In this document: positions 12,263 to 33,241 of the stretch, piece by piece
Numbering within the stretch: the first letter of the stretch is position 1
Layout of the letters: every line of letters begins with the position of its first letter
Source of the DNA: a virus
Reading direction: 5' to 3' (one strand)
Length of the DNA stretch: 35,592 bases
Virus record (IMG/VR): IMGVR_UViG_3300030329_004172
Location: 1 to 35,592 of that record
Notes under the pieces: generated by a model
Databases searched by the model: none
Told to the model about the DNA's origin: nothing
The model's input: only the letters and a program-made list of their open reading frames with translations
Program-made: the position numbers and the translations under genes

Positions 12263-13600
12263 ATGGGATTATTAGACGGTACAAATCAACAAGAATATTA
12301 CACAGGAAACGACTTTGGCGGTTATCAGTTTGTTTCTTTAGAAGACATCATAAATCAGTTTATGATTATTTATGTTGGAGAAGATAAATTAATATCTAGA
12401 GCTAGAAGATTAGATGTTGCTTTTCACGCTCAAAGAGCCTTAGCTGAATTATCATTTGACACTTTTAAATGCACTAAATCGCAAGAAATAACATTGCCTG
12501 ATTCTTTAACTATGATGCTACCGCAAGACTACGTTAACTACATAAGTTTATCTTGGTTAGATGATTCAGGTATACAACACACTTTATATCCAACTAGCAA
12601 AACATCAAATCCAACACCTATATTACAAAACGATGATGGAGATTATGCTTTAACAGCTGTTGGTACTTTAGTAGATGGTTCTAGCAGTATAACTTTAAAC
12701 AGCGAGTATAAAAATGTTTTAGTTGGTATGTTAGTGTCTAGTCCTAATATACCTGCTGGATCTATAGTTGCTAGTACAGCTAACGCTAGTAGTATTACAA
12801 CTATAACAATTACTGATGCTAACGGCACAGACGCTTTAGCTACTTATTCTGGTGATGAAACTTTAACGTTTACACCACAAGATGATTCTTTAATAATAGA
12901 AGAAGAGTCTGCTTTTATTTTAGAAAATGCAACTTGGTCTGTAAATGAAGATAAAATAACTCAATCACCAAATACAGGCGTTTCAGATATTAAAGTTGGC
13001 ATGTTGGTTTCTCACAAAGATTTTCCGCAAGGCACAACTGTTGTTGATGTTAACGGCGCTGTTATTACTACTTCCAGCGCGGCTACATTAGCTTCTACTA
13101 GTACTACTAACGAAGTAACTTTTGTTTCAGCCAACGGTAACTCTACCACTTGGAACACTTACAAGGGTGCAACGCCAGCAGAAAATCAAAAAGATGATTT
13201 TAACTATGATGACGATAACTACGATTTAAACATAGGTCAAAGATACGGTATACACCCGCAACACGCTCAAATAAATGGTTCTTTTTATATAGATGAAATT
13301 AGAGGAAAAATAAACTTTTCATCTAATATTTCTGGAAAAAATGTAATATTAAAATATATAAGTGACAGTTTAGGTACTGATGATGAAATGAAAGTTCATA
13401 AATTTGCTGAAGACGCCATGTACAAACACATACTATGCGATGTTATGTCTGCTAGAAGAGGTGTTTCATTTGGTGCTTTAAGACAATACAAGAAAGACAA
13501 GTTTGCTGCTGTTAGAAAAGCTAAATTAAGATTATCAAATATTAAAATAGAAGAAATAACTCAAATACTTAGAGGCAAATCTAAGTGGATAAAACACTAA
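12263..13600 (+). CDS. Neck/adaptor protein 2 with inserted beta modules
   Basis: A 445-residue protein four bases after adaptor 1. The ends form the core: the N-terminal helices carry VSLEDIINQFMIIYVGEDKL and ARRLDVAFHAQRALAELSFD, followed by LPQDYVNYISLSWLDDSG. The C-terminal part has GSFYIDEIRGKINFS, VILKYISDSLG and the helix VHKFAEDAMYKHILCDVMS. This is the gp11-like arrangement of short-tail adaptors. Between about residues 135 and 310 two beta modules are inserted, each with a VGMLVS...(I/F)P.G(S/T).V motif at residues 154 and 245, about 91 residues apart. A similar module occurs in the 472-residue protein at 21945. The insert probably projects from the neck. The adaptor role is inferred from fold pattern and position. 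Confidence 0.65.
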   Translation: MGLLDGTNQQEYYTGNDFGGYQFVSLEDIINQFMIIYVGEDKLISRARRLDVAFHAQRALAELSFDTFKCTKSQEITLPDSLTMMLPQDYVNYISLSWLDDSGIQHTLYPTSKTSNPTPILQNDDGDYALTAVGTLVDGSSSITLNSEYKNVLVGMLVSSPNIPAGSIVASTANASSITTITITDANGTDALATYSGDETLTFTPQDDSLIIEEESAFILENATWSVNEDKITQSPNTGVSDIKVGMLVSHKDFPQGTTVVDVNGAVITTSSAATLASTSTTNEVTFVSANGNSTTWNTYKGATPAENQKDDFNYDDDNYDLNIGQRYGIHPQHAQINGSFYIDEIRGKINFSSNISGKNVILKYISDSLGTDDEMKVHKFAEDAMYKHILCDVMSARRGVSFGALRQYKKDKFAAVRKAKLRLSNIKIEEITQILRGKSKWIKH

Positions 13601-13603
13601 AAT

Positions 13604-16600
13604 ATGCCAGAAATTAAAAACAGTTTCACTCAAGGTAGAATGAATAAAGACTTTGATGAGAGACTTATACCTAACGGACAATATAGAGACGCTCTAAATA
13701 TACAAGTTTCAACATCTGAAGAGTCAAATATTGGAACAGTGCAAAATATATTGGGTAACGAAAGAGTTGAAAATTTAATTCCTGCTTCTGAAAATTATAA
13801 ATGTATCGGTAGTATCGCCGACGAAAAAAACAATAAATTATACTGGTTTGTAACTAAAAAAAGCGCACCTAGAGTTGACGCTATAGTTGAATATAGAAAA
13901 GGTTTTGATGCTAAGCTTGTTTTGGTTGACAATAAAGCAGGTACAGTTGATGCAATATTAAAGTTTCCTGATAATATAATAACAGGTATAAACTTAATAG
14001 AAGACATGTTGTTTTGGACAGACAACATAAACGAACCTAGAAAAATAAACATAGAAAGATGTAAACAAGGAACTAGCGGTACATTAAACAACCCAGTACA
14101 CACAAAGTTGTTTGTTAACGGTGCTATAGTTCAAGAAAACAACACAGATGTTGATTTAACAGAAGATCATATTACTGTTATTAAAAAAAGACCTACTAAG
14201 GCTCCTACTGTAAATGTAAACACGGTTTCTGGTGATGTTGAAGATCCTTTATTTGAAAAAACTTTTTCAAGGTTTGCTATAAGATATAAATACGAAGATA
14301 ACGAGTACTCTGCTTTTAGTCCTTTTACTGATATAGTTTTTAGTGCTAAATATAAAGAAGGTTACGATAAAGATAATTCTTTTTCTATAGAAGAGCCATA
14401 CAATACAGCCATGCTTAACAGTATAAAATCTATAGAGCTAAGCGATTTTGTCGCACCTGATATACCTAAAGATGTTGTTCAAGTGGATATACTTTATAAA
14501 AAAGAAGATTCACCTATAGTTTACTCTATAGCTAGTATAAAAAGCACCGACGATGAATTTACAGATGATGGTTCTTCATCTGCTTCTAATTTTAAAGGAA
14601 AATATACAGTAGAAAAAGAAAACATTTATGCTGCTGTTCCAGAATCACAACTGTTAAGGCCTTGGGATAATGTACCTAGAAACGCTTTAGCTCAAGAAAT
14701 AACTGGAAGCAGATTAATATACGGTAACTATATTCAAAACTATGATTTAGGTGTAGATGAAAACAACAATGTTATAACACCTTCGCTAGATGCTGGTTTT
14801 GGTTTAAGAAATAATAATGATAATTTTTACGATGCAGGTTTACCTTCGTTAAAATCGCAAAGAAACTACCAGCTAGGTGTTGTGTTTGGCGATAAATACG
14901 GCAGAGAAACACCTGTTTTTTCTTCTACAGATTCAGCTATACGTATACCTTGGGAAGATTCAAATTTAGGTAAATGTGCTAGTACTTCTTTACAGCTTCA
15001 GGCTAATCTTACCTCAAGTGTTCCAGCTTGGGCAGACTACTATAAATTTTACGTAAAAGAAACTTCAGGCGAGTATTACAACTTGGTCATGGATAAAGCT
15101 TATGTACCTACTTCGGATATAGATGAAGAAGAAGAGTATGGCCATATTTGGATGTCTTTTCCTTCTTCTGATAGAAACAAAATAACGGAAGAAGATTTTT
15201 TAATATTAAAAAAGAAAATAGGTGTAGGTGAGCAGCAAATACAAACTGATAATAAATACAAAATTATTGATGTAGCTAATAATGCACCTGATTCTATAAA
15301 ATACAAATACGTTGGATTAGGATCAGTGTCTAACACTGACGGTAGTGACACTACACAGTTAACAGATGATATTTTAACTGAATCAGCTAACAGAATAGAT
15401 AAACAAGTAGACACTTTAATTGTAGATAAAACAAACTGGGAAACAGAAACTAGCGCTGAAATTTTTTCTAATATTCAAGACACTTATGTTTCTTGGGTTA
15501 AAACAACAGGTACGGCACCTAATAAAATAACACAAGCTTCAAAAAGATATAAAATAGCTTCACAAAAAACAGGTACATATGATTTCAAACTAGAAGAAAA
15601 AATATCTGAAAAAGACGCCGCTCTAGCTGCGCACGCTACAGACTCTACTTTACTTGATGCTGATATAACTTTTAAAATAGAAAGAAAACAGTTAAAAGAC
15701 ATGGACGAGTTTTCAGGTAGATTTTTTGTTAAAGTTGTGGCTGATGATACTGTAAATTCAAATATAGAAAATAGTGTAACTACAGAGTTGTTAGATAATC
15801 ATGTTGTTGTTGCTCAAAGAGACACTTTTTGGTTTGCTGATACTAGAGCTACAACAGCTAACGATGAAGATACTGGTATAGTTAATTCTTTAGGTTTAGG
15901 AACTATACCTACTGGTACCGATGCTATTACCGCTAAAAACGGTGCTGTAACGCCTTTAACTAACACAGCTACAGCTTGGGGAACTTTAGAAACTTATGTA
16001 AACAATAAGTTTTTTATAGATAGCATGTATTTTTGTGCTGGACAAAATTCACCTAACAATTACGCTAGAGACGCTGGTAGTATTTTCAGAGGAACAACTA
16101 ATCAATACGCGGGTATAGAGTGGACTAATAGAATACAAGAATTTTCTGCTTCTAACGACGCTTACGCTCAAGGTATAAATTCTGGTGGTCATAGATGGTG
16201 GCCATTTGATTTTGACGACAACAACGCGGCAATACCTCACACAAGCGTTATTGTAACTAACGAAGATCCAACTGTAAACATTAACGGTATGGATGGTTTT
16301 GTTAAAACCTCTGAAGGTTCACCACTTGTTAGTGACGATGGTTTTAAAAGATGGAGAAAAGAAGGGCCTTTAGCTACGGTTGGTTTTCCTAACGCTGATT
16401 ATTCTTTTGATGAAACATACGGGCCTAATGATGGTAGAGAAAGGTATTTTATACATTTATCGTTTTTAGCACCAGGTGCTGATTTAGTTCCTGACGCTAT
16501 AGATATAGATGGTGCTACTTTAAAAGGTAACAGTAGTTTAGCTGTACACTTACAAGGTATTTGGGGAGGTGGTGTATTTTGTAACGAAACAGGTACTAAA

Positions 16601-19600
16601 TTAGGAGATTCTAGCGATCGTATAATAGAATTTGAAGGTAACTACAATGACGATAATGATCCTGTTAGAAATTCACCTGGGCCTGGTTTTGGTCAAGGTT
16701 ACAATGAATCTTATACCGAACTACACAACAATCAATGGAATCCAGCTTATCCAGCTAGCAGAGATGAGGACGGCTTAATACAAGATTTTGTATCTAATAT
16801 AGCCGTAGGTAACAGATTTAAGTTTGATGGCGACACAGACGAAACTGTTTATACAATATTATCTAAATCAATTAAAAAAATATATAATCACACTCCATGG
16901 AGAAAAAGAAAAATATACGATGGCACTAGCTTTGTTTTTGGTGGTGACAGTGTAGAAGAGGCGGCTGTTACTTGGGCCGCTAACGCCGATACTAATGGTA
17001 CACCAGCTGACACATCTGGTAACACTGAGCATGAAGATTTAGAAGAAAAAATTAAAGAATTTGGTCAAGCTGACAACAGAAGAATATGTTATATTATAGA
17101 AGTAGACAAAGATCCTACAGATCAAACTTATAACCCTTTAGGTAATGCTGACGTTGACACGGCACTTAGTATACAGTTTGTTGAAAGTGATTCTAGAATA
17201 TTATCTGGAAGTGTATCAAGGCAATCAGCTATATGGGAAACAGAAGCTAAAAAAGAAACTGATTTAAATATATATTACGAGGCCAGTGACGCTATACCAA
17301 CTAATTTAACTTTACAAAACAATGAAGTTTTTGCGCCTATTGGCTGTGTGGTAGACTTTTTTGATATACCACAAGCTAAAAATGGTGCTACTAATATACT
17401 GGAAGATGTTTTGCTAGACTCTTGGGATTCTGCTACAGAAATAACGCTAAGCCCTGGGTTTAACCAATTTGATTCTAGCAATACAGCTATAGAGTATAGA
17501 GGTTCACAACTAAGGTTTTACAAAAAAGATGGCAGTTATGTTACAGCTAGAGTTTCACCAGAAGACACGGCTTACGATGATTTAGACGCTGGAGACAATG
17601 TTACTAAGTTTGTTGTAACAGATATTGTTAACCCTGAATTTGAAGTAGGTTTAAGCTGGTATAATTGTTTTACTTTTGGTAACGGTATAGAGTCTGATAG
17701 AATAAGAGATGGTTTTAATGAAATGCAAATAACTAATGGAGCTAAAGCTTCATCAACAACAGAAGAGCCTTATCAAGAAGAGCATAGAAAACATGGCTTA
17801 ATATATTCAGGTATATACAACTCTAACTCTGGTTTAAATGAATTAAATCAGTTTATAATGGCTGATAAAATAACAAAAGATTTAAACCCTACTTTTGGTA
17901 GCATACAAAAGTTGTTTCAAAGAAGAACAAGTTTAATTTCTTTTTGTGAAGACAGAGTTGTTCAAATACTTTCAAACAGAGACGCTTTATTTAACGCTGA
18001 TGGTAACCCTCAATTAATATCATCAAGCGCTGTACTAGGTGATGCTACTCCTTTTATAGGTGACTACGGTATATCAAGAAACCCAGAATCTTTTGCTAAA
18101 GAATCTTATAGAGCTTATTTTACAGATAAACAAAGAGGCGCTGTTTTAAGGTTATCTAATGATGGGCTAACGCCAATATCTGATGCTGGTATGCATGATT
18201 GGTTTAGAGATAACTTAACTAGCGCTGGATTTTTAATAGGTACCTATGATGAATATAAAAAAGACTACAACTTAACTTTATCTAGGCCTATACTACAAAA
18301 CTTATTAGTTAACGCTGACGTATCAGCAGGTGTTGCTGTAGAAGAAACTATACCTTTGCCAGAATTTATAATAGACGGCGGTATAAACAACGGTGATCCT
18401 GTAAATTTACCTGTTATAGATGAAACAAACATGTCTATCGTTAATGAAGAAATAGAAACAACTACTGATATTGTTAATTACTCGGCTATAGATGCTGGAA
18501 CTTTACAAAGTTTTGTAGCTGAAATACCTGCTGTAGCCCCGATTGACCCTGTTTTTGAGCAAGGAATTAGTAGCATAAACACAAGCGGTACACCTTATTC
18601 TGCTACAGCTTATGATGGTACTGGTTTTAATGTGTTTTCCAACAATTACAAAACTTTAGCTCAAGGTGGTACCACTAACGGTAACCCGTTTGAAGATTTC
18701 ACAGGTGACACACCGACGGCTAGATTAAGAAGAAGAAATTATACTGGTGATGACAACAATAATAGTTACTTGAGTAATCAAAACAGCCCAGATTCTAATA
18801 TAGATGGGCCTATAGGCTCTAACAATTATGTAAATTATACCGTTGGTGGTGGCGATTATGATGTTGCTTTTGGAAGCGGAAGTGTAACTAGCGACAACAA
18901 CAAAGGTAACGTTCACTACAACACAGACACTCCAGGTGGTTTTTTAGGAATAATATTTAGACATGAATATTCAAACCATCAGTTGGGTAAAGGTAACGAC
19001 TTTAGAACTACAGGCAACAATGATGGTTCCAGTTGGTTAGAGTTTCCTAGAGATTACGACGATGATAATGAAGCGGTACCGGCAGATGTTTTAGCAAAGT
19101 TTACTACAGCAAAAAACAACACTATATTTAACGGTGAAGAATTAGAAATACAATTTAGAATTAGAACAAGACAAGATGGTTTAGATAGATCAAACACTAA
19201 CGATCGTTTTGGTGGTTTTGAAATAACACTTTTTGATGGTCAAAATCAAGTAGCTAACAGTATAATACATAATCCTGGCGCGGCTGTTTCAACTATATCA
19301 GATCCTTTTAGTGAAACGTTACATACGCCTGAAGATACTGGCAACGATATAGATGATTCTGGTGCGTTACATTTAGGTTTTCAAGATGACTCTCAAGTTC
19401 AATTTGCAGACGTAAGACTAAACAACGAAAATTATAATCATAAATGTTATTTTAAATTTAAAGACACAAGCTTGGTAGACGCTAACGGTAACTTAAAAGA
19501 CGGTATAGTGATTGAAAATCTTATAATAAGATTAAGATTTAAAACATCTGATCACGATGAAGATCAGGCTTACACTTTAAGAGACTTTACCGCAAGAAAA

Positions 19601-21934
19601 ATATTTAGATTAGCTGAGCCTGGTGTTGAAGAGGTTATTAACGAACCTGAGATACAGGCTTTTCCACCTGTAGACATACCAGCTTACACACAAGTAACGC
19701 ATAATTCTATTGTTGGTTGGAACTCTGCTACCAGTGGAGTTGTTTTTAATCCTACAGCTATATCAACTTACGGCAACGATACAGGTGCTCCGACATCTCA
19801 AACTTATGTTACATCACAAGTACCTTTAACTACAGCTACAGCTTTAATACCTCCTGGTTTTGATTTAAACACAGGTACAGGTGCTCCAGCAGCGTTAAAT
19901 TTTAGTGACGGCGCTTACACTACAGACGATAAATTTGATATAGACGCCACAAGCAACGATGTTATTATTAATCAAGTTTTAGCAACGCCTTATGTGGTAG
20001 GTAATTTTTACTTACTAGACTTATATTGTGACACAGCCGCTATAACAGGCGAAGCCTTAGTCCACGGTGTTGCACCTAGCTCTGGTGTTGCGCAAGGGGA
20101 TCAATTAGATGATCATTTTGGAACAGTTTACATCAACAACAATATAAACAGTATAAAGTTGGTTTCAACCACTAGAACATCATCAGAATACGGTACAGGC
20201 ACAGACACAGTTTTAAGAGCTATATTTAAAGTGCAAAGCGGTAGTTATATAGCAAACAACAACTTATTAGGTGCTCTTAATTTAGAATTTACAGATGATT
20301 TTGTAGGTGAAATAACAAAAGTTAAACTAATAAACATATCTACAACTTCATCATCTGGTCAAGCTACTCACTGGAACATGGATACCAGCGCTTTAAACCA
20401 AACACACTCTTTAAGTTTACCTACACTTTACTATGGTGGTAACAACTCTTATTCTGGTTTCAACTGGGATGGTGGTAGAGAGGTTAATTTTATAAATCAA
20501 ACATTTACACCTTCTTTAGGTGCCGCTAGCACGGCAACTTCAGCAGACGGCTACAGTTTGGTGTTTACAATATCAGAAGCTGTTGATATAAACGGAACAT
20601 CGTTAGGCGCTGTTGATGGCGAATTACAAGGCTTTGTTCATTGCGCACATGACGGTACAAGCTGTACTGGTTTCAGTTTTACGGGTATAGATACAGCTGG
20701 AGATTACGAAATAACGGGTAATTTTGATGGTTCAGCTCCAACAATTATTTCAGCTCCTACCGGGTCTGCTGTTTTAGTCACTTCGTCTACCGAATCAGAT
20801 GCTAGTTTAGCTAATCAAATTTACTTCAACCCTGTAGATAATGCTGATTTTACAGGTAATATAAATAATATTTCTTTAGTAGATATAACAAACTTTTTTA
20901 GCGGTGGTACTGCTAGCGCTTTTGCTTTTGGTGGCTTTAACACAACAACTCAAGATTTTATACAGTTTGACTTAACTAATGAAAACATACAATTTAATTC
21001 AGCTCCAGCAGCTGGCGGTGTGGCAGACGGCCCTGTTAGGTTAACACAATACATACCTAACGTTTTAAACACTGGCGAAACATTTAGAGTTAAATTTGAT
21101 TATACTAATATAACTGGAGAGCTAAATGGTTATTACTTTAATAGCGCTGGCAAAGGATTTAGACTAGACACTATTAGCAACACTGGTGTTTACAATCAAA
21201 GATTTGAAATAGGCGATGATAATCATGATGACAGCACTACAGGAATTTGGCCTAACGGTGAATTGAAAAACACATTTGTTATTTATGTTCAAACAGGTGA
21301 TGTTTCAGGAACAATAGATAATTTAGTTTTACAACAAGAGTTTCCTGGTTACGAACCAACTACTGTAACTTATAGTGAAGACGTTAAAGGTTGGGTAAGT
21401 TTTAAATCTTTTGGTGGTGTTAATATTAACGGAGAAGAATTAACGCTTGATTATGGAGTTAGTTTAGCTAAAAAGTACTTTACAATGCACCAAGGGCGTT
21501 TGTATGAACACCACATGCAAGGCGCGCCTAGAAACACTTTTTACGGTATATTTGTACCATCAACTTTAACAGCCGTTTTAAACGAATCACCTTCTATTGT
21601 AAAAATATTTAACACTTTAAATTACGAAGGCAGCCAGTCTAAAGTTAAGCTTTTTGAAACTAAAACAACAGACGATGATATAAACGAAATACAAGAAACT
21701 TTAAGCAATATAAATATTCACAACAGCACTCAAGCTAAAGATGGTTGGGCTGTAGACACGAGTTTAGGTGGATATATAAAAACAGACAAACAACAAGGTA
21801 CATTAATAGAATTTATAGAAAAAGAAGGTAAATGGTTTAATTACATTAGAGGTGATGGCTCAGATGTTAAAACAGCTGATTTAAGCTTCCAAGGTTTAGG
21901 TATAGTTACTAACACACCTACTATAGGTTCATAA
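13604..21934 (+). CDS. Giant tail nozzle / stabilization-type protein with inserted binding modules
   Basis: A 2776-residue protein. The opening MPEIKNSFTQGRMNKDFDER, then LIPNGQYRDALNIQVSTSEE, is characteristic of the tail tube/stabilization proteins of crAss-like and related short-tailed phages, whose core is a beta-propeller-like nozzle (compare T7 gp12). Propeller-like blades follow (KNNKLYWFVTKK, LIEDMLFWTDNINEPRKINI). A middle core segment holds FQRRTSLISFCEDRVVQIL (about 1440-1460) up to YDEYKKDYNLTLS (about 1550). The core resumes near 2587 (VTYSEDVKGWVSFKSFGG to VKIFNTLNYEG). About 1000 residues between are Gly/Thr/Asp-rich jelly-roll-like modules, probably glycan binding, and a further insert lies around 640-1250. 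The protein should form the tail nozzle and present receptor-binding parts. Core assignment is strong; the insert role is inferred. Confidence 0.8.
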   Translation: MPEIKNSFTQGRMNKDFDERLIPNGQYRDALNIQVSTSEESNIGTVQNILGNERVENLIPASENYKCIGSIADEKNNKLYWFVTKKSAPRVDAIVEYRKGFDAKLVLVDNKAGTVDAILKFPDNIITGINLIEDMLFWTDNINEPRKINIERCKQGTSGTLNNPVHTKLFVNGAIVQENNTDVDLTEDHITVIKKRPTKAPTVNVNTVSGDVEDPLFEKTFSRFAIRYKYEDNEYSAFSPFTDIVFSAKYKEGYDKDNSFSIEEPYNTAMLNSIKSIELSDFVAPDIPKDVVQVDILYKKEDSPIVYSIASIKSTDDEFTDDGSSSASNFKGKYTVEKENIYAAVPESQLLRPWDNVPRNALAQEITGSRLIYGNYIQNYDLGVDENNNVITPSLDAGFGLRNNNDNFYDAGLPSLKSQRNYQLGVVFGDKYGRETPVFSSTDSAIRIPWEDSNLGKCASTSLQLQANLTSSVPAWADYYKFYVKETSGEYYNLVMDKAYVPTSDIDEEEEYGHIWMSFPSSDRNKITEEDFLILKKKIGVGEQQIQTDNKYKIIDVANNAPDSIKYKYVGLGSVSNTDGSDTTQLTDDILTESANRIDKQVDTLIVDKTNWETETSAEIFSNIQDTYVSWVKTTGTAPNKITQASKRYKIASQKTGTYDFKLEEKISEKDAALAAHATDSTLLDADITFKIERKQLKDMDEFSGRFFVKVVADDTVNSNIENSVTTELLDNHVVVAQRDTFWFADTRATTANDEDTGIVNSLGLGTIPTGTDAITAKNGAVTPLTNTATAWGTLETYVNNKFFIDSMYFCAGQNSPNNYARDAGSIFRGTTNQYAGIEWTNRIQEFSASNDAYAQGINSGGHRWWPFDFDDNNAAIPHTSVIVTNEDPTVNINGMDGFVKTSEGSPLVSDDGFKRWRKEGPLATVGFPNADYSFDETYGPNDGRERYFIHLSFLAPGADLVPDAIDIDGATLKGNSSLAVHLQGIWGGGVFCNETGTKLGDSSDRIIEFEGNYNDDNDPVRNSPGPGFGQGYNESYTELHNNQWNPAYPASRDEDGLIQDFVSNIAVGNRFKFDGDTDETVYTILSKSIKKIYNHTPWRKRKIYDGTSFVFGGDSVEEAAVTWAANADTNGTPADTSGNTEHEDLEEKIKEFGQADNRRICYIIEVDKDPTDQTYNPLGNADVDTALSIQFVESDSRILSGSVSRQSAIWETEAKKETDLNIYYEASDAIPTNLTLQNNEVFAPIGCVVDFFDIPQAKNGATNILEDVLLDSWDSATEITLSPGFNQFDSSNTAIEYRGSQLRFYKKDGSYVTARVSPEDTAYDDLDAGDNVTKFVVTDIVNPEFEVGLSWYNCFTFGNGIESDRIRDGFNEMQITNGAKASSTTEEPYQEEHRKHGLIYSGIYNSNSGLNELNQFIMADKITKDLNPTFGSIQKLFQRRTSLISFCEDRVVQILSNRDALFNADGNPQLISSSAVLGDATPFIGDYGISRNPESFAKESYRAYFTDKQRGAVLRLSNDGLTPISDAGMHDWFRDNLTSAGFLIGTYDEYKKDYNLTLSRPILQNLLVNADVSAGVAVEETIPLPEFIIDGGINNGDPVNLPVIDETNMSIVNEEIETTTDIVNYSAIDAGTLQSFVAEIPAVAPIDPVFEQGISSINTSGTPYSATAYDGTGFNVFSNNYKTLAQGGTTNGNPFEDFTGDTPTARLRRRNYTGDDNNNSYLSNQNSPDSNIDGPIGSNNYVNYTVGGGDYDVAFGSGSVTSDNNKGNVHYNTDTPGGFLGIIFRHEYSNHQLGKGNDFRTTGNNDGSSWLEFPRDYDDDNEAVPADVLAKFTTAKNNTIFNGEELEIQFRIRTRQDGLDRSNTNDRFGGFEITLFDGQNQVANSIIHNPGAAVSTISDPFSETLHTPEDTGNDIDDSGALHLGFQDDSQVQFADVRLNNENYNHKCYFKFKDTSLVDANGNLKDGIVIENLIIRLRFKTSDHDEDQAYTLRDFTARKIFRLAEPGVEEVINEPEIQAFPPVDIPAYTQVTHNSIVGWNSATSGVVFNPTAISTYGNDTGAPTSQTYVTSQVPLTTATALIPPGFDLNTGTGAPAALNFSDGAYTTDDKFDIDATSNDVIINQVLATPYVVGNFYLLDLYCDTAAITGEALVHGVAPSSGVAQGDQLDDHFGTVYINNNINSIKLVSTTRTSSEYGTGTDTVLRAIFKVQSGSYIANNNLLGALNLEFTDDFVGEITKVKLINISTTSSSGQATHWNMDTSALNQTHSLSLPTLYYGGNNSYSGFNWDGGREVNFINQTFTPSLGAASTATSADGYSLVFTISEAVDINGTSLGAVDGELQGFVHCAHDGTSCTGFSFTGIDTAGDYEITGNFDGSAPTIISAPTGSAVLVTSSTESDASLANQIYFNPVDNADFTGNINNISLVDITNFFSGGTASAFAFGGFNTTTQDFIQFDLTNENIQFNSAPAAGGVADGPVRLTQYIPNVLNTGETFRVKFDYTNITGELNGYYFNSAGKGFRLDTISNTGVYNQRFEIGDDNHDDSTTGIWPNGELKNTFVIYVQTGDVSGTIDNLVLQQEFPGYEPTTVTYSEDVKGWVSFKSFGGVNINGEELTLDYGVSLAKKYFTMHQGRLYEHHMQGAPRNTFYGIFVPSTLTAVLNESPSIVKIFNTLNYEGSQSKVKLFETKTTDDDINEIQETLSNINIHNSTQAKDGWAVDTSLGGYIKTDKQQGTLIEFIEKEGKWFNYIRGDGSDVKTADLSFQGLGIVTNTPTIGS

Positions 21935-21944
21935 AATAAAAATT

Positions 21945-23363
21945 ATGTTTAAATTACCAATACAATATTACGGAGGAGGGGAAGAAGGAGGTAGATCAAC
22001 ACCACCTCCATCTAAAGATGATGAAACTGGTGGAGACACTCAAGTTGTAAAACTAGGCAAAAGAGTAGCTACTGTTGATACCACTATAAAAGTGCCTACT
22101 GTATCTTCTGTTAAAATAAACACAGGTAGTTTAAAAGCCATATCCGCTGGTAGGCCTTTAACTATAAAAGGAGACGAGGGCGCTGAAGTTATAATTAATA
22201 TAGTTGCTACTTCTGGTAGTGATCTTGGTAAGTTTTACAATTTTACTACAAACTCTTTTGATGATTTAGCTAAGTTTGATAATCAAAACAACTTGCGAGC
22301 AGTTATAAAAAACGGAGTTTTTACATCACAGATAAATTTTCCAGCTAGCGGCGGTGATAGTTATAACATTATAGTAATAGCACCAGGAGACAAAGATACT
22401 AGATTAGCTGGTGGTATAAGCCGTGGCGGTAATGTTACCGCTAAGTCAATATCTAGAGTTGCTAACGCTGAGGTTACGTTGTCTATGTCTACTGATAGCG
22501 CTGCTGACGGTACGGCTAACTATGCTACTTTTCCTACTGACGTTACGTCTACAAACTCTCCAGTTAAAACAGGTAACACTCCTGTTACAATAGACTGGAC
22601 GGTAACTAATGTTTCTTCAGACGCGGGCGGTTTTGGTTTAAAATTAGCTAGTGACGAAACTTTAAAAGATTTTGATTGGAATAGCGCTTGGTATTGCTCA
22701 ACTACAGAAAACGTATCAGATAATCCAGCTGGTGACGGTGTTAGTAGTAGCACTGTTGTGGTAGCTGATTTAACAGATCTTTATGTTGGTTTACAGTTGA
22801 TTTATCACAAAGGAACAACAGCACCCTCAGCAACAACGTTTATAAAAAGTATAGATGTTTTAACAAAAACTTTAACGTTCTCTACTTCACAAGCTTTTGA
22901 AGACGGTGAAACTATGACTTTTAGAGGTTACGGTAAAAGATTAATAAACAAATCCACTGGTTTAGATGTTGATTTTGGTAAATTTACAGCTACAGCTGCA
23001 GAGTTAACTAAAACTGTTAGAGATGGTGGTGGTGGCGTTACTGACGCTGTAGACGGAAATAGCACCACTATAAGTTTAAACGGCACTTATGGCATAGCTG
23101 GTGGTAATACTGTAACTTACAAAGGTGCTGGTGTTGATAACTCAGCCGCTAACGCGGTAACATCTGTTAGTGCTAGCTCTTCTGCTGGTAGTATGGTGGT
23201 ACAAAATGCACAAACGCTAACAGCTGGAACTAAGTTGATATTTAAAGGTTGTTCTCAAACAGTAAAAATAAAAGGTAGAGTACTTATTAAAAAATACCCT
23301 ACAAGCAATAAAACTATATATTTAGATTTAGATAAATTTATAACAGTGGGCGCAGGCTCTTAA
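21945..23363 (+). CDS. Beta-modular virion protein
   Basis: A 472-residue protein starting MFKLPIQYYGGGEEGGRSTP. The first 30 residues are Gly/Pro-rich and probably flexible. The rest is beta-rich with Ig-like character (AEVIINIVATSGSD; YNIIVIAPGDKDTR; VTIDWTVTNVS). At about residues 268-325 there is a module with VADLTDLYVGLQL, SIDVLTKTLTFS and DGETMTFRGYG. It matches the inserted modules of adaptor 2. A second related copy ends in LTAGTKLIFKGC, followed by QTVKIKGRVLIKKYP. Position after the nozzle and before the internal proteins makes it a tail or fibre component, but no known family is recognised beyond the module likeness. Confidence 0.6.
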   Translation: MFKLPIQYYGGGEEGGRSTPPPSKDDETGGDTQVVKLGKRVATVDTTIKVPTVSSVKINTGSLKAISAGRPLTIKGDEGAEVIINIVATSGSDLGKFYNFTTNSFDDLAKFDNQNNLRAVIKNGVFTSQINFPASGGDSYNIIVIAPGDKDTRLAGGISRGGNVTAKSISRVANAEVTLSMSTDSAADGTANYATFPTDVTSTNSPVKTGNTPVTIDWTVTNVSSDAGGFGLKLASDETLKDFDWNSAWYCSTTENVSDNPAGDGVSSSTVVVADLTDLYVGLQLIYHKGTTAPSATTFIKSIDVLTKTLTFSTSQAFEDGETMTFRGYGKRLINKSTGLDVDFGKFTATAAELTKTVRDGGGGVTDAVDGNSTTISLNGTYGIAGGNTVTYKGAGVDNSAANAVTSVSASSSAGSMVVQNAQTLTAGTKLIFKGCSQTVKIKGRVLIKKYPTSNKTIYLDLDKFITVGAGS

Positions 23364-23373
23364 AACAAAAAAA

Positions 23374-23718
23374 ATGATTATAGAATTAGAAAAAGACATA
23401 CATAACATATCTTTGCAGTTAGGCGACATTGTTTACGCTGTGTCAGCGCCCACGGAACAACAAGATCAAAAAACTTCTACTGGTGATATAAAAAAAGTAG
23501 GTACGGTTATTGGTATTAGCGGTAATCAAATAACCGTAAAAGATAGTAGCGTTACTTATACGCCACAACAAGATGAGTTTATTATGTTTTCAAAAGACAA
23601 AAACGCTAACAACACAAGTTTGATTGGTTATTATGCGGAAGTTAAGCTAACAAACGATTCAACTGAAGAAGCTGAATTATACGCTTTAAGCTCTGAAATA
23701 GCTCAATCTAGTAAATAA
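23374..23718 (+). CDS. Small SH3-like conserved virion protein, unknown function
   Basis: A 114-residue protein, MIIELEKDIHNISLQLGDIV at the start, then GTVIGISGNQITVKDSSV, a loop, DEFIMFSKDKNANNTSLIGY, and YAEVKLTNDSTEEAELYALS at the end. The alternation suggests a small beta barrel of SH3/KOW-like type. Its combination of 'FSKD..N.TSL.GYYAEVKL.N.S...AEL.A.SSEI' resembles a conserved protein seen in marine tailed phages, where I recall only structural annotation. It sits among virion genes and has no signal or membrane part. The role is unknown; a plug, hub or decoration part is possible. Confidence 0.6.
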   Translation: MIIELEKDIHNISLQLGDIVYAVSAPTEQQDQKTSTGDIKKVGTVIGISGNQITVKDSSVTYTPQQDEFIMFSKDKNANNTSLIGYYAEVKLTNDSTEEAELYALSSEIAQSSK

Positions 23719-26395: not shown

Positions 26396-29300
26396 ATGGC
26401 TGACAGAAAAAGATATAAATCGTTTAAAGATGCACCTGATTTTGACACAGACTCTTCTTTAGGTTTGTTTGCAAGAAACAGAAACACTAAAGAACAAGAA
26501 GAAAATAAAACAGGTTTAGATAAAATATTCAATATAGGTAGAGAATATTTAGATGCTGTAGTCGGTGGTTGGAAGACTGGTAGGGTAACAGAAGAGTATT
26601 TAGAAGTTTTTAAAGGTGATTTTAGTGACGAAACTATAGGCGCTATGATTAAAGCTGGAGACGAGTTAAACGCGTTGCCTCAAAGCGAAAGAATGATGGA
26701 CTTTCTTGAAAGAGCCAAAGACAAAAGTTTTTTTGGCGCTTTAATAGAACTAGCTAAAAAAGACGGGGCTTTGATAGCTTCACAAGTAGCTTTACAATCT
26801 ATGTCTATGATGGCTGGTGCTGTTTACGATAGTGGTGTAGATTTATCTCAAGGTAAAACACCTGACATTTTTGGTTATATGGCAGCGGGAGCTGGTATAG
26901 GTGCTGGAACTGGAGCTGGTGTTGGTACTTTTGTTCTTCCTGGTATTGGAACAGCGTTTGGTGCTGTCACTGGTGGTGCTGGCGGTGCTTTAGGCGGTAT
27001 TTCCACTGGATTAGAAAATGGTTTAACTTTTGTAGAATTGCTTAAAGAAGAGTTAGCAGCTATAGATCAAGACATGACAGAAGAAAACGCTAAAAACTGG
27101 TTGCAAGACAAAGAAAATTATAAAAAAATAAAAAACAAAGCTTTAAAAAGAGGTTTGACTATTGGGGCTGTTGATATGTTTACCGGTATAGCTTCAGGTG
27201 GTGCGGCTAAAGCTATAACGGGTACAGGTACACAAATAGGTAAAAAGTTAACCGATCTACCTATAAAAACACAAAGATTAGCTCAACTAGGAACTGGTGC
27301 TGTCGTAGAGGGTGCTGGTGGTGGTGTTGGTGAATTTTTAGGACAAAAAGCAGCAGGTCAAGAAATAAACACCGCTGATATAATATTAGAAGCTTTTGCT
27401 GAAACGCCTGGCGCGGCTATAACAACACTACCGGCTATGTTCAGTAAAACACCAGAGTATTTTATAACAGAAAATGGTAAAAAAATAAAATACACTAAAA
27501 AACAATTTTTAAACGCTATAGATGGTTTAGACGATAGCGCTTTAGCTACATTGGGTATTGATATAAAAAATGATGATAATTTTAAAGCTCAGTTGTATGA
27601 CAGAATGAACTCTTCTTTTTTAAGAACACAAATAGATCCTAGAGTAAAAGACGAAAAAACAATAAACAAAATAATAGAGTTAGAAAAAGAAGCTCAAAAG
27701 TTATACGGTAACAAAACCGTATCAGGTAAAGAAAGATTAAAAGAAGTAAAAGCAGAAATAAAAGAGTTAACGCAAACAGACGCTAAAATGACCGCGGCTG
27801 ATAGAGCTAAAGTTAAAGAAGCTGAAGAAATAAAAAGAACTAGAGAGCAATTAAATATATCAGAAAGCATAGAGTTTGCTGAAACTCAAGGCGAAAGAAT
27901 AGGTAAATCAGTTTTAGTTGTTGAAGACAACGAATCAGCACAAGACGTTTACAATCAATTAATACAAGCTGCTCCAGATCAATTTAAAGCGAAAGACATT
28001 ACTGGTCAAGACGGTTTTATAGTTGGTGACGTTATTGTTATAAACAAAGATATAGCTGGTAAAAGTGGCGCTATAAGTGTTGGATCTCACGAGTTGTTAC
28101 ATGGCGTGTTAGCTAAACATTTAGAACAAATAGGCACAGAAGGTGCTAGGGCTCTTATAAAAGATTTTAGAAAAGTACTAAGTAAAAAACAAGAACAAGC
28201 AGTTTTACAAAGATTAGAAGATAATTATGTTTTTTTAAGAGACAAGAAAGGTGAATTTATATTAGATGAAAAAGGCAACAAAATAAAAGACGCTGATTTT
28301 GATATAGAAACAACAGACGAGTGGTTTACAGCTTTCTCTGATGCTATAGAAAAAGGCGAAATAACTTTTGATGAAGGCATTTTTAGTAAAATTAAAAATA
28401 CAATACATGAAATATTAAGAAAATTTAATTATTTAAAAGAGTTTGAAACTGGTAGAGGCGCTTACAACTTTTTAAAAGAATATAGTAAAAATATAGAAGC
28501 CGGTAAGTTAGGTAAAAGAGCTATGGCTTTAGCTGGTGAAGGTGTAGCTGTAGAAGGTATAAAAGCGTCTAAGTCTAGTGCTGATAGAGTAAATAAACTT
28601 TACGACGACAGAGGCGTAGAAGCTGCTGGAGATATATCTGTAGAATATAGAGGTATGGCTGAAAACATATTTAACAGAGCTGTTGATATGGCTGAAGGTG
28701 ATATAAAACAAAACTTAAAAGACAACAAAGAAGATATAATAGCTGGTATACTTTACGATCCTGGCACTGAAACTAGAAAAGGTAGAACTGTTTTAGGTTT
28801 GGTAAAAGATTACCCTGCTTACGTTAAAAAACAACAAGAGGCTGGTAAACCAGTAGCACCGTTAGCAGGTTTTATAAACAACATGTTACCAGACAGAGCT
28901 AAGGAAATTTTTAAACCTTACGGTGTAGACATGGCTGTAACTAAGTCTATAACGGATGAAAAAGTAGCTAGAGAGGTAGCTAAAAAAGAAGCCAAAGAAG
29001 ACATAGAAACAAAAATAGATACAAAAGAAAAAGGCCCAAGAGAATTAAAAAGTTTAGACGATGTTAATTTAAACGATGAAGGTGTAATAGCTGAAGAAAT
29101 TTTAAATAAAGTTAACGAACTAGTACAAACAAATCCTAAAAATTTAAAACAACAGTTATTGGCTTTAGTTGAAAAAGAATTTACCAACGCTATTAAAACG
29201 CAAATGGGTGGAATAAGTAAAGTTAAAGGCGAGGTGGTTGTTAGTGAAGAATATAAGGCTTTTCACGCTTTAGAGTTTGACAATATAGTAAAAGCTTTAC

Positions 29301-32300
29301 CTATTAGCGTTATTAAAAAAAATTATAACAATTTATTTGAAATAAAAAAGTTAGCTAGAGAAAAAGATAAAAGAGTAGATCCTGTAACTGGTAAAGTAAC
29401 TTACCCAGGTAAAGGTATATATCAAGTTGATCCAGTTAAAAAATCAGTGTTTGGTAAACACTTTTTAATAGGTGGTTATACAACTTTATTAGCAAGACAA
29501 AAAAAGTTAGCAGAGCACATGGCTACAGCTAAAGCAAAAGCAGCTGTAGACAATTACATAGAAGAAAACTCTAACGACATAAACGCTGTTGTTAGATCAC
29601 AATTAGAACAAGCTTTAGAAATTTTAGATAAACAAAAAGGTGAAAACAGAAGTTTTGACAATATTAAGTTTCACAAATCTATAATGAAAGAAACAATAAG
29701 TTTGTTTAATACTGGTAAATACGGCACAATGGGTAACGCCTTAGAACAAGCTTTAATGAACCATATAAAAAGATACAACATACCTGGTTTAAGATTTACT
29801 GTAGAAGAAACAGGAGAAAAAGGCGGTATGGCTGACTTGGTTTTTGACTTTGGTAACGTGCGTTATAACGTTGAAGTAAAAATGACCGACAAGGTTCCTA
29901 TGGGTAGTACTTCGGTTAATAAATATGATGTAAATAAAGACTTGAGTTTTGATTTATCTAAATCAGATAATGAGCTTTTAAATGTTGTAGCAGAAAAGTT
30001 AATGAAAAAAGCTAAAAAGCAAATTAAAGCTTACGTAGAAAGAGCTAATGAATTAATAGAAGAATATAACCAAGAGTACAACGACAATTATAAACCAATT
30101 GGCGAAATTGGTCCTGATATGGTAAAGAAAAAAGCAGTTATGCCAGAACCCGTGTACGATCAGTTAAAAAACGAGGGGTATGGTGCGGCTATAAACAGAG
30201 TTTTTGAAACAGGTGATGAAAAAATAGTTGTTAAGCACTATGCACTTAAACAAGCTATTATTGACGGTAAAAAACAACTAGCTCCAGTAAGACAAATAGA
30301 AATATTAGGGCAGTTTTTTAGATTATCAGACGAAAGCCCTTTTGACTCTATAGTTCCACTTTTAAAAGGTAAAACAAAGTCAAGATTAAGAGTTGATAAA
30401 CTTTCTAGACAGATAAAAAAAGACGGTAAAAAGTTAAAGTTTAAAAACAAAAATGGTCATGGTGAAGTTCCTTTTAAACTAAGAATAACGCATACTTTTA
30501 CAGAAGTAACAAACAGTTCTCCTTATTCGTTAAGTAGAAAAGAAGATTTACTAGCAATTTTACCTAAGTATTCTAGAACAACACCTGGTTACTCAAAAGG
30601 TTTAAACTTGTTATCAAAAGCCGCGGTTAACAGTAGAAACACGGTTAAATATAGTAAGTCAAGAGGTATGAGTACTTTTGATTTTGACGAGACACTTATA
30701 ATAAAAGGTAAAAACTTTGTTACAGCTACAGATCCTGCAAGTGGTAATACTATAAGGGTTAGCTCAGAGCAGTGGCCTACTAAAGGCACAGAGCTAGCAC
30801 AACAAGGTTATGAATTTGATTTTACAGACTTTGTAAATGTAAGAGGTGGTATTGATGGTCCTTTGTTACAAAAAATGAAAAACCAAATAAAAAAGTTTGG
30901 ACCTAAAGATGTTTTTGTTTTAACTGCTAGGCCAGCTAAAAGTGACACAGCGATACACGGTTGGTTAAAAACAAAAGGTATAAACATACCTATAGAAAAT
31001 ATAGTTGGCTTAGGTAATAGTACTGGTGAAGCTAAAGCCACATGGATGTTACAAAAGTTTACAGAAGGTTATAATGACATGTATTTTGTTGATGACGCTT
31101 TATCTAACGTTAAGGCTGTTAAAAACGTTTTAGATCAACTAGATATAAAATCAGATGTTCAACAAGCTAAAATCAAGTTTAGTAAAACAATAAACTCTGA
31201 CTTTAACAGTATATTAGAAGAAGTTAAAGGTGTACCTAAAGATGAAATAATAGACAGAGTTACAGCTAAAAAAATGGGAGCTAAAAAAGGTAGATTTAAT
31301 ATATTTGTACCGCCTTCTAACGAAGATTTAAATGGCATATTATATATGTTTATGGGTAAAGGTAAAAGAGGTGAACAACATAAACAGTTTTTTAAAAAAG
31401 CATTAGGTGATCCTTTAAATAAAGCTTATAGAGAGTTTTACAACGCTAGACAAGCTATAGCTAACGATTTTAAAGCGTTAAAGAAAAGAATACCAAATGT
31501 ACGTAAACAGCTTGCAGCTAAAGTACCAAACACTAATTTTGATGTTTCTGACGCTATAAGAGTTTATTTATGGGACAAATTTGGTTTTGATATACCAGGT
31601 ATATCAGAGGCTAATCAAAAAAAGTTAGTTAACTTTGTAAACGATAATAGTGATGTTAAAGATTTTGCCGAAACATTAAGCGTTATTTCTAAAGTTGAAG
31701 AAGGCTACGTTACGCCTAGTGAACACTGGATAACTGAGTCAATACAAGAAGATCTAATAAAAGCTACAGATAAAGTACGTAGATTAGATTTTTTTGAAGA
31801 ATTTTTAACTAACGCAGATATAATATTTTCTGAAGAAAATTTAAATAAAATAGAAGCTATATACGGAACTACCACAAGAGATGCTATATCGGACATGATG
31901 TATAGGATTAAAAACGGTACTAATAGAAGTTTTGGTAGCAATAAGTTCGTAAACGAATTTATGAACTGGATAAACGGCTCTATTGGCGCAACTATGTTTG
32001 TTAACGTTAGATCTTCCGTGTTACAGACTTTGTCTACTTATAACTTTATAAATTGGACAGACAACAATCCGTTTAAAGCGGCTAAGGCTTTTGCTGATCA
32101 ACCTCAATTTTGGAAAGATTTTGCAATGCTGTTTAACTCTAACATGTTAAAACAAAGAAGAAAAGGTTTAAAGTCTGACATTAACGCTTCAGAAATAGCT
32201 TCTTTTGTTAGAAAGTCAGATCGCCCTGTAAGAGCTGCTATAAATTGGTTACTAAGTAAAGGTTTTTTACCTACACAAATTGCAGATAGTTTTGCTATTG

Positions 32301-33241
32301 CTGCTGGTGGTGCCACAATGTTTAGAAATAGAGTTAACACTTACGTGAAACAAGGTTTTTCGGTCAAAGAAGCTGAAAATAAAGCTTTTTTAGATTTTGC
32401 TGAAATCGCAGAAGAAACACAACAGTCTGCAAGACCAGATAAAATATCACAACAACAAGCATCTGTATTAGGTAGATTAATACTGGCTTTTCAAAATACA
32501 CCTATACAGTATATGAGGTTAACTAAAAAAGCTATGTTAGACTTAGTTAATCGTAGAGGCGATGCTAGAACTAACATATCTAAAATAATTTATTACACCT
32601 TTGTTCAAAACGCTATATTCTACAGTATGCAGTCAGCTTTATTCGCTTTAGCTTTTGGTGACGATGATGATGAAAAAGATGAGTTTTTTAAAAAGAAAAA
32701 ACAAAGAGTGGCTAACGGTATGATGGATACTATATTAAGAGGTATGGGTATTGGTGGTGCTGTTGTGTCTACAATAAAAAATATGGCTATAGAGTTTGCT
32801 GAGCAAAGAGGTAAAAAGTATAATAGAGATGAAGGTGCTTTAATAATAGAAGCTTTAAATTTATCTCCGCCTATTGGTATAAAAGCTAGAAAAATAGATG
32901 ACTTTCAAAAAGGTTTTTTTTGGAACGAAGATGTTATGAAAGAAATGGAGTTGTTTAACTTAGAAAATCCTATTTGGGACGCTACTAGTAGTTTGGTTCA
33001 AGCAACAACTAATGTGCCTTTAAACAGGTTGTACAAAAAAGCATCTAACATAAGTGAGGCTTTAAACGCTGAAAACGAAACGTGGCAAAGAGTAGCTTTA
33101 GCTTTAGGTTGGAGTAAGTGGAATCTTGGTATAAAAAGTGACGAAGTTGATAAAGTTAAAGAACAAATAAAAAAAGAAAGACAAAGTGGAACGACTAACG
33201 CTAGAGAAACATTTAAAAGAACAAGAAAAAAAGGATTTTAA
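26396..33241 (+). CDS. Polyvalent ejected protein: zincin, PD-(D/E)XK-like and HAD domains
   Basis: A 2281-residue protein, three bases after the EF-hand gene. A Gly-rich hydrophobic region (about 161-209) could insert in a membrane. A zinc metallopeptidase motif HELLH (H565, E566, H569) is followed by E642 in TTDEWFTAFSDA, a candidate third ligand. A PD-(D/E)XK-type nuclease motif follows: D1147 in GGMADLVFDFG and E1160-x-K1162 in YNVEVKM. A complete HAD phosphatase set then appears: D1429-F-D1431 in STFDFDETL, T1510 in LTARP, K1547 in GEAKA, D1566/D1567 in YFVDDAL. The remaining 700 residues are helical with apolar stretches (LGRLILAFQNTPIQYMRLT; IIYYTFVQNAIFYSM). This matches the 'polyvalent protein' class of phage-injected multidomain proteins (Iyer and colleagues). 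It probably enters the cell with the DNA. Activities are inferred from motifs. Confidence 0.75.
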   Translation: MADRKRYKSFKDAPDFDTDSSLGLFARNRNTKEQEENKTGLDKIFNIGREYLDAVVGGWKTGRVTEEYLEVFKGDFSDETIGAMIKAGDELNALPQSERMMDFLERAKDKSFFGALIELAKKDGALIASQVALQSMSMMAGAVYDSGVDLSQGKTPDIFGYMAAGAGIGAGTGAGVGTFVLPGIGTAFGAVTGGAGGALGGISTGLENGLTFVELLKEELAAIDQDMTEENAKNWLQDKENYKKIKNKALKRGLTIGAVDMFTGIASGGAAKAITGTGTQIGKKLTDLPIKTQRLAQLGTGAVVEGAGGGVGEFLGQKAAGQEINTADIILEAFAETPGAAITTLPAMFSKTPEYFITENGKKIKYTKKQFLNAIDGLDDSALATLGIDIKNDDNFKAQLYDRMNSSFLRTQIDPRVKDEKTINKIIELEKEAQKLYGNKTVSGKERLKEVKAEIKELTQTDAKMTAADRAKVKEAEEIKRTREQLNISESIEFAETQGERIGKSVLVVEDNESAQDVYNQLIQAAPDQFKAKDITGQDGFIVGDVIVINKDIAGKSGAISVGSHELLHGVLAKHLEQIGTEGARALIKDFRKVLSKKQEQAVLQRLEDNYVFLRDKKGEFILDEKGNKIKDADFDIETTDEWFTAFSDAIEKGEITFDEGIFSKIKNTIHEILRKFNYLKEFETGRGAYNFLKEYSKNIEAGKLGKRAMALAGEGVAVEGIKASKSSADRVNKLYDDRGVEAAGDISVEYRGMAENIFNRAVDMAEGDIKQNLKDNKEDIIAGILYDPGTETRKGRTVLGLVKDYPAYVKKQQEAGKPVAPLAGFINNMLPDRAKEIFKPYGVDMAVTKSITDEKVAREVAKKEAKEDIETKIDTKEKGPRELKSLDDVNLNDEGVIAEEILNKVNELVQTNPKNLKQQLLALVEKEFTNAIKTQMGGISKVKGEVVVSEEYKAFHALEFDNIVKALPISVIKKNYNNLFEIKKLAREKDKRVDPVTGKVTYPGKGIYQVDPVKKSVFGKHFLIGGYTTLLARQKKLAEHMATAKAKAAVDNYIEENSNDINAVVRSQLEQALEILDKQKGENRSFDNIKFHKSIMKETISLFNTGKYGTMGNALEQALMNHIKRYNIPGLRFTVEETGEKGGMADLVFDFGNVRYNVEVKMTDKVPMGSTSVNKYDVNKDLSFDLSKSDNELLNVVAEKLMKKAKKQIKAYVERANELIEEYNQEYNDNYKPIGEIGPDMVKKKAVMPEPVYDQLKNEGYGAAINRVFETGDEKIVVKHYALKQAIIDGKKQLAPVRQIEILGQFFRLSDESPFDSIVPLLKGKTKSRLRVDKLSRQIKKDGKKLKFKNKNGHGEVPFKLRITHTFTEVTNSSPYSLSRKEDLLAILPKYSRTTPGYSKGLNLLSKAAVNSRNTVKYSKSRGMSTFDFDETLIIKGKNFVTATDPASGNTIRVSSEQWPTKGTELAQQGYEFDFTDFVNVRGGIDGPLLQKMKNQIKKFGPKDVFVLTARPAKSDTAIHGWLKTKGINIPIENIVGLGNSTGEAKATWMLQKFTEGYNDMYFVDDALSNVKAVKNVLDQLDIKSDVQQAKIKFSKTINSDFNSILEEVKGVPKDEIIDRVTAKKMGAKKGRFNIFVPPSNEDLNGILYMFMGKGKRGEQHKQFFKKALGDPLNKAYREFYNARQAIANDFKALKKRIPNVRKQLAAKVPNTNFDVSDAIRVYLWDKFGFDIPGISEANQKKLVNFVNDNSDVKDFAETLSVISKVEEGYVTPSEHWITESIQEDLIKATDKVRRLDFFEEFLTNADIIFSEENLNKIEAIYGTTTRDAISDMMYRIKNGTNRSFGSNKFVNEFMNWINGSIGATMFVNVRSSVLQTLSTYNFINWTDNNPFKAAKAFADQPQFWKDFAMLFNSNMLKQRRKGLKSDINASEIASFVRKSDRPVRAAINWLLSKGFLPTQIADSFAIAAGGATMFRNRVNTYVKQGFSVKEAENKAFLDFAEIAEETQQSARPDKISQQQASVLGRLILAFQNTPIQYMRLTKKAMLDLVNRRGDARTNISKIIYYTFVQNAIFYSMQSALFALAFGDDDDEKDEFFKKKKQRVANGMMDTILRGMGIGGAVVSTIKNMAIEFAEQRGKKYNRDEGALIIEALNLSPPIGIKARKIDDFQKGFFWNEDVMKEMELFNLENPIWDATSSLVQATTNVPLNRLYKKASNISEALNAENETWQRVALALGWSKWNLGIKSDEVDKVKEQIKKERQSGTTNARETFKRTRKKGF

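Follow-up and report, generated by a model that had tools for sequence, protein, structure and literature searches.

A divergent module insert in the muzzle protein of a crAss-like phage as a probable accessory adhesion arm

The muzzle protein of a crAss-like phage is interrupted, at a tight turn of its C-terminal region that probably lies within a propeller blade, by an insert of 1026 residues, which we consider likely to be an accessory adhesion arm. The protein is encoded in the window, by which we mean the whole 35,592-nt stretch of IMG/VR virus record IMGVR_UViG_3300030329_004172; the muzzle gene and its parts, its two downstream neighbours and the LamG/ConA-like protein lie on its plus strand. 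The insert spans residues 1560–2585 (18281–21358), it changes faster than the rest of the protein, and its predicted fold resembles that of carbohydrate-binding modules (CBMs).

RESULTS

The muzzle gene and its setting

A single uninterrupted ORF (13604–21934) encodes the 2776-residue protein. Judged by its sequence it is the crassvirus muzzle protein, which the first-pass annotation had called a nozzle: it matches PHROG 14478, and the Pfam family crAss_MUZ_C (PF25729) matches residues 2642–2751 with 39.5 bits, above the cut-off of 27. The late gene block runs, in order, from terminase-like, portal-like and capsid genes through two ring-type proteins to the muzzle ORF, the names being taken partly from synteny with phi38:1 and elemoC. 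The 231- and 445-residue ORFs immediately upstream match phrog_14543 and phrog_13977 and occupy the ring position of relatives, so the muzzle gene follows the ring proteins; an SU10_adaptor match at these ORFs is below its cut-off. The named phages nearest to the muzzle protein, at ~28–34% identity over the matched parts, have Cellulophaga, Flavobacterium, Maribacter and Tenacibaculum as hosts and belong to Pervagoviridae, Pachyviridae and Elemovirus, groups whose records are not labelled with the order Crassvirales.

Downstream lie a 472-residue ORF (21945–23363), which stands beside long and short muzzles alike, and a 114-residue ORF (23374–23718) of the phrog_18548 family, to which the muzzle C-terminal part also belongs. 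The C-terminal part matches the start of that family (2–101) and the 114-residue ORF its end (169–239), so that in phi13:2-like phages the two form a single protein. The 445-residue ring-type protein (12263–13600) is a second tail protein carrying an added module, an insert of ~130–190 residues at about residues 135–335, when compared with its 285–303-residue relatives. Elsewhere in the window, a 196-residue ORF just upstream of the terminase-like gene (2342–2932) matches a PHROG annotated as co-chaperonin GroES (E 1.5e-14). A probable cargo protein of 2281 residues (26396–33241), whose sole match is phrog_32588, contains HExxH-like (HELLH) and DFDET motifs picked out by eye. A 344-residue ORF (33244–34278) with no family match has a signal-peptide-like start and, by eye, a beta-barrel look, and is possibly a phage-encoded outer-membrane protein.

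Boundaries of the insert

We collected loci using as queries the muzzle N-terminal part (80 best of 142) and core residues 1345–1559 (80 best of 299), and searched all ORFs of these loci with profiles of both flanks made from 15 relatives. The muzzle core covers residues 1–1559 (13604–18280); the left profile ends at 1559, and the matches of relatives mostly stop at 1559–1561. The right profile covers residues 2586–2676 of the C-terminal part (2586–2776; 21359–21934), and the insert is the gap between the two profiles. Among 101 ORFs with both flanks, counting the window itself and a few duplicate contigs, this gap measures 3–26 residues in 31, 74–167 in 6 and 660–1442 in 64. The first-pass annotation had placed about 1000 residues of beta modules between residues ~1550 and ~2587, at 18240–21370, and these limits agree with the measured ones to within about 50 nt; its three quoted peptides all occur in the translation of the ORF. 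It had also suggested a comparison with shorter homologues. The segment is absent from the 31 ORFs with the shortest gaps, so that a colinear region without short versions, the outcome that would have spoken against an insertion, is not what the family contains.

The long relatives were recovered by scanning with the neighbouring core, not with the insert; over residues 1345–1559, those found with that query (80 best of 299) are 69–87% identical to the window. The window's insert has a blastp match at E <= 1e-3 to each of the other 59 distinct long inserts, and insert profiles run against the collected loci have no matches except in muzzle inserts. A pattern scan of viral contigs using the insert found no relatives, phmmer found no match among the ORFs of the first-collected loci, 50,697 phage records contained none at E 10, Pfam contained none and sequence searches of the PDB gave no useful match.

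Predicted modules and their fold

An AlphaFold model of residues 1500–2690, built on 47 alignment rows (mean pLDDT 72, pTM 0.43), shows four predicted beta-sandwich modules, mostly at pLDDT 80–94, which bears out the 'jelly-roll-like units' noticed earlier. The insert opens with two lead segments, at residues ~1563–1580 (18290–18343) and ~1583–1600 (18350–18403). These are followed by a putative outward linker (~1601–1655; 18404–18568) and by the innermost and most variable stretch (~1656–1810; 18569–19033), which is modelled mostly with low confidence (pLDDT about 31–66, the poor part being ~1655–1808). Module M1 (~1811–2006; 19034–19621), a putative returning linker (~2007–2045; 19622–19738) and module M2 (~2046–2250; 19739–20353) come next in the model, and the main parts of M3 (~2268–2432; 20405–20899) and M4 (~2437–2584; 20912–21355), placed by the model and by structure alignments, complete the insert. 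M3 and M4 are related to each other (hhalign 97%).

Among the matches listed by VIA-align for the window model, carbohydrate-binding modules predominate: the best is a hyaluronan-binding module (Z 11.7), CBM4-2 and CBM16 score near 10.8, and a porphyran-binding module scores 10.2. Insecticidal toxins, glycosidases and other proteins with the same fold are also among the matches listed. A second model, of the 660-residue insert of the relative L116, has the same hyaluronan-binding module as its best match (Z 12.6), and its first 13 matches include CBM16 and the phage tailspikes K2-2 and CBA120 TSP4. In both models the single-module rows align 120–148 residues at about 3 Å. Foldseek with the window model returned low TM scores only, over long stretches, and the five of 60 distinct long inserts scanned against Pfam matched no CBM family at E <= 10. 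The models point to a CBM-type beta-sandwich fold for the insert modules, although a shared fold shows no function.

Nesting of the outer modules

The structure alignments suggest a nested chain path. Of the 50 rows for the window model, 23 begin at model residue 60–66 and end at 1080–1085, in M4, and another 21 go from 78–87 to 928–933, in M3; just 118–159 residues are aligned in these rows, and six rows span two modules. Because the rows start at the beginning of the insert and end in M4 or M3, the first lead segment is probably the first segment of M4 and the second, in the window model, that of M3, the remainder of each module following about 700–900 residues later (about 500–650 in L116). 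In the L116 model, 48 of 50 rows run from 60–73 to 712–716; the pattern joining the second lead segment to M3 is not replicated there, the listed rows being taken up by M4. An N-[IL]-x-N...G motif, its expression formulated after seeing the rows, is found in the lead in 45 of 47 rows, with a second copy in 14. Taken with the comparisons below, the models make it probable that M4 and M3 are nested.

The same modules could form an ordinary tandem row without nesting, preceded by a lead segment that is a flexible linker. Such a layout is simpler, it would suit the low to middling model confidence of the lead segments, and the second motif copy occurs in only those 14 rows; we nevertheless regard it as unlikely, since alignments begin in the lead in both models and close relatives diverge in a matching manner. 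Between L169 and L170, lead residues 1–40 diverge (65 and 50% identity) as the M3–M4 part does, and lead residues 61–140 stay at 85–100%. Between L159 and L153, the inner block alone diverges (20–65% in most windows), with lead residues 1–60 at 95–100%. L111 and L116, moreover, lack the innermost block only (M1 and its neighbour). Over 24 close pairs, which are not independent, the identity of lead1 correlates with that of M3 at 0.59, M4 at 0.21, M1 at -0.45 and M2 at -0.41; lead2 gives 0.41, -0.01, -0.25 and -0.05 for the same modules, and lead3 gives 0.59 for M1, 0.24 for M2, -0.34 for M3 and -0.53 for M4. Across all 990 pairs there is little correlation, and lead2 sides with M2 (0.15) more than with M3 (-0.02).

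Divergence and block exchange

Divergence within the muzzle protein is greatest in the insert, and blocks of the insert are exchanged between near relatives. The median identity of 18 relatives to the window is 17–38% in residues 1601–2600, compared with 28–77% elsewhere, where residues 601–900 (28–34%) are nearly as variable as the insert. Over 46 rows, identity is 19% in residues 1661–1830, 23% in M1, 21% in M2, 27% in M3 and 31% in M4, and 77% and 55% in the two flanks. The right flank is better conserved than M4 in 19 of 19 close pairs, and M4 better than M1 in 15 of 18. The cores of L169 and L170 are mostly 92–100% identical (70–90% in part); identity falls to 15–65% in the M3–M4 part and then returns to 85–100%. 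Between L159 and L153, most of the differences fall in the innermost part. Hypervariability of this kind might come from a diversity-generating reverse-transcriptase system, but the differences fall in module-long blocks and a PF00078 reverse transcriptase is found in none of 33 records, which may be fragments, leaving this origin with a negligible probability.

Gain and loss of the insert

A tree of 128 rows over 368 columns requires three changes for the long state, and in the AU test on it a single long clade is not rejected (p 0.11). As this tree was too weak for the test, a set of 1398 columns and 75 rows was made and its tree rooted on seven outgroup rows. Here a single clade of long forms is rejected (p 6e-7), as is one clade of the eight short rows (p 4e-76); the groups tested were named after the first tree. 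The short L167, L009, L160 and L151 are basal in the second tree, L142 comes next beside the long L121, and the short L106, L107 and L113 lie deep among long forms. Both trees require three changes and differ in where they place L009, L151, L160, L167 and L142, which in the 368-column tree form one group among long forms. Duplicates (L090, L100, L101, L147, L108) and a fragment (L089) were left out. On the simplest reading of these sequences, the interleaved long and short forms reflect one gain and two losses. The genes next to the muzzle are the same in short-muzzle as in long-muzzle relatives, with no visible replacement nearby where the insert was lost, and the insert appears, from this pattern, to be dispensable in evolution.

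The insertion site and its other occupants

The C-terminal core of the 15 relatives aligns with crAss001 gp44 (hhalign 95.6%, E 1.1e-8) and places the equivalent of the site at ~residues 1199–1201, a tight turn; the profile excluded the window protein, which aligns with the profile's 15 relatives. The SU10 nozzle was tried as a homologue of the core and rejected (profile alignment 4.8%, no similarity detected). The crAss001 muzzle is described as a propeller of seven blades, with IG1, IG2 and the crass fold breaking into it as far as residue 1021 (PMC10172136). The insertion site would thus follow these interruptions, probably in one of the last propeller blades. Length variation of muzzles through insertions is already known, and PMC10172136 names the crass and IG2 domains as places of such insertions; the site of the present insert is a different one.

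In 32 loci the left and right flanks are encoded by different ORFs, of which the second begins at the junction (distance -47 to 1714 nt), so that the C-terminal part is a separate ORF. Complete left-flank ORFs without a right flank continue for 282–1318 residues beyond the left flank in 36 of 36 cases. Four of these extensions were scanned for domains: that of phi13:2 contains a Big_9/cadherin domain (E 4e-21), L052 and L062 contain 8 and 11 thrombospondin type 1 (TSP1) stretches (E 2e-103 and 1.5e-140), and no family was found in L030. The adhesion-type modules mounted at this junction thus vary from lineage to lineage, cadherin/Ig in one and TSP1 in another.

TSP1 repeats are known chiefly in animals and animal parasites. 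The arrays are fused to the muzzle at the junction in L052 (13460–16681), L053 and L062 (13460–17413), and their base composition is the same as that of their surroundings. A second place for added modules is the muzzle C-terminus: L010, L014, L016, L022, L025 and L083, which have no insert, carry extensions of 770–1225 residues there, some with fn3, LRR or TSP3 matches.

DISCUSSION

We propose a built-in gripping device as the probable role of the insert, since it is a fast-changing, sugar-binding-like arm that is absent or replaced in relatives. In the predicted arrangement, the chain would pass out through the first segments of M4 and M3, form the innermost stretch, M1 and M2, and return through M3 and then M4. 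M4 would be the base of the arm, seated on the muzzle, and the innermost part its tip. If true, the nested layout is an unusual build for an arm whose two ends both sit at the base. The arm is presumably exposed on the virion, in about six copies around the tail tip if the muzzle is a hexamer like that of crAss001, and its modules may recognise cell-surface glycans or receptors of a similar kind, either before the muzzle gate opens or as it does so. In the crAss001 muzzle, exposed loops are proposed to touch the cell (PMC10172136). Several points speak against adhesion: such beta-sandwiches also occur in non-adhesive proteins among the matches listed, the insert has no Pfam match, its loss leaves no visible replacement nearby, and residues 601–900 of the muzzle come close to it in variability.

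Modules of this kind might instead be structural, decorating or stabilising the tail tip or holding neighbouring tail proteins without host binding. They sit on a tail-tip protein, and phage tails commonly use large tandem beta domains as structural elements; scaffolds, however, are expected to be conserved, yet no other part of the protein is as divergent as the insert, which is absent in near relatives, and this makes a structural role decidedly unlikely. The first-pass annotation had gone further and proposed that receptor binding is built into the nozzle rather than carried by separate fibres. The first half of that proposal is plausible, given hypervariability, block exchange and the predicted CBM-like fold; the second half is unsupported. 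The window encodes a candidate separate adhesin, a LamG/ConA-like protein (1028–1831; PF13385 E 2.4e-5, 24.9 bits against a Pfam cut-off of 27.6, and 28.3 bits in a six-frame search) that also matches the virion structural protein family phrog_10356 (E 1.2e-9). It has no close relative among 37 other records. LamG domains turn up in 7 of the 24 records searched, alongside long muzzles as well as short ones, and the short-muzzle L106 encodes a 1153-residue protein with three of them. That the insert alone binds the receptor in place of tail fibres is very unlikely: its divergence and CBM-like fold would fit, but the separate LamG protein, the short relatives with the same neighbours and the losses on the tree argue against it. 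The adhesion arm that we favour need not be the only gripping device of the phage.

More broadly, one tight turn of the muzzle may be a general socket for adhesion arms in crAss-like phages of aquatic Bacteroidota, a host group suggested by cultured relatives, and it would accept nested CBM-like, TSP1 or cadherin/Ig arms. We offer this generalisation tentatively, with slightly less belief than doubt. If true, arms on the gate protein would tune host range, and recognition and gate opening would be joined in one molecule. The proposal touches the question of how crAss-like phages trigger muzzle opening, and natural long, short and split versions, the short and split ones in cultured phages, make gate-borne recognition testable. 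In the open-access papers searched, among them PMC10136315, PMC11054128 and PMC12386605, we found no description of this insert, of the split or of the TSP1 arrays.

Among known systems, the insert modules resemble CBM4, CBM16 and the CBM70-type hyaluronan-binding module 4d0q in their beta-sandwich type (Z 10–12.6); they differ in that sequence identity in those alignments is low (mostly 8–20%), in having no Pfam match and in being probably nested. The gp44 protein of the Bacteroides phage crAss001 belongs to the same family and aligns in its C-terminal region, but it has 1371 residues and no insert at this turn. The Cellulophaga phages phi38:1 and phi13:2 have core and gene order in common with the window. 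In the short muzzle of phi38:1, however, the site holds 3 residues instead of 1026, and in phi13:2, unlike the single ORF of the window, the gene is split there and has a 501-residue extension, on gp120, with the Big_9/cadherin domain. The SU10 nozzle, as described in PMC9509320, is like the muzzle a tail-tip protein with a propeller, one loop of which docks short tail fibres; there, receptor binding resides on the separate fibres, not on the nozzle.
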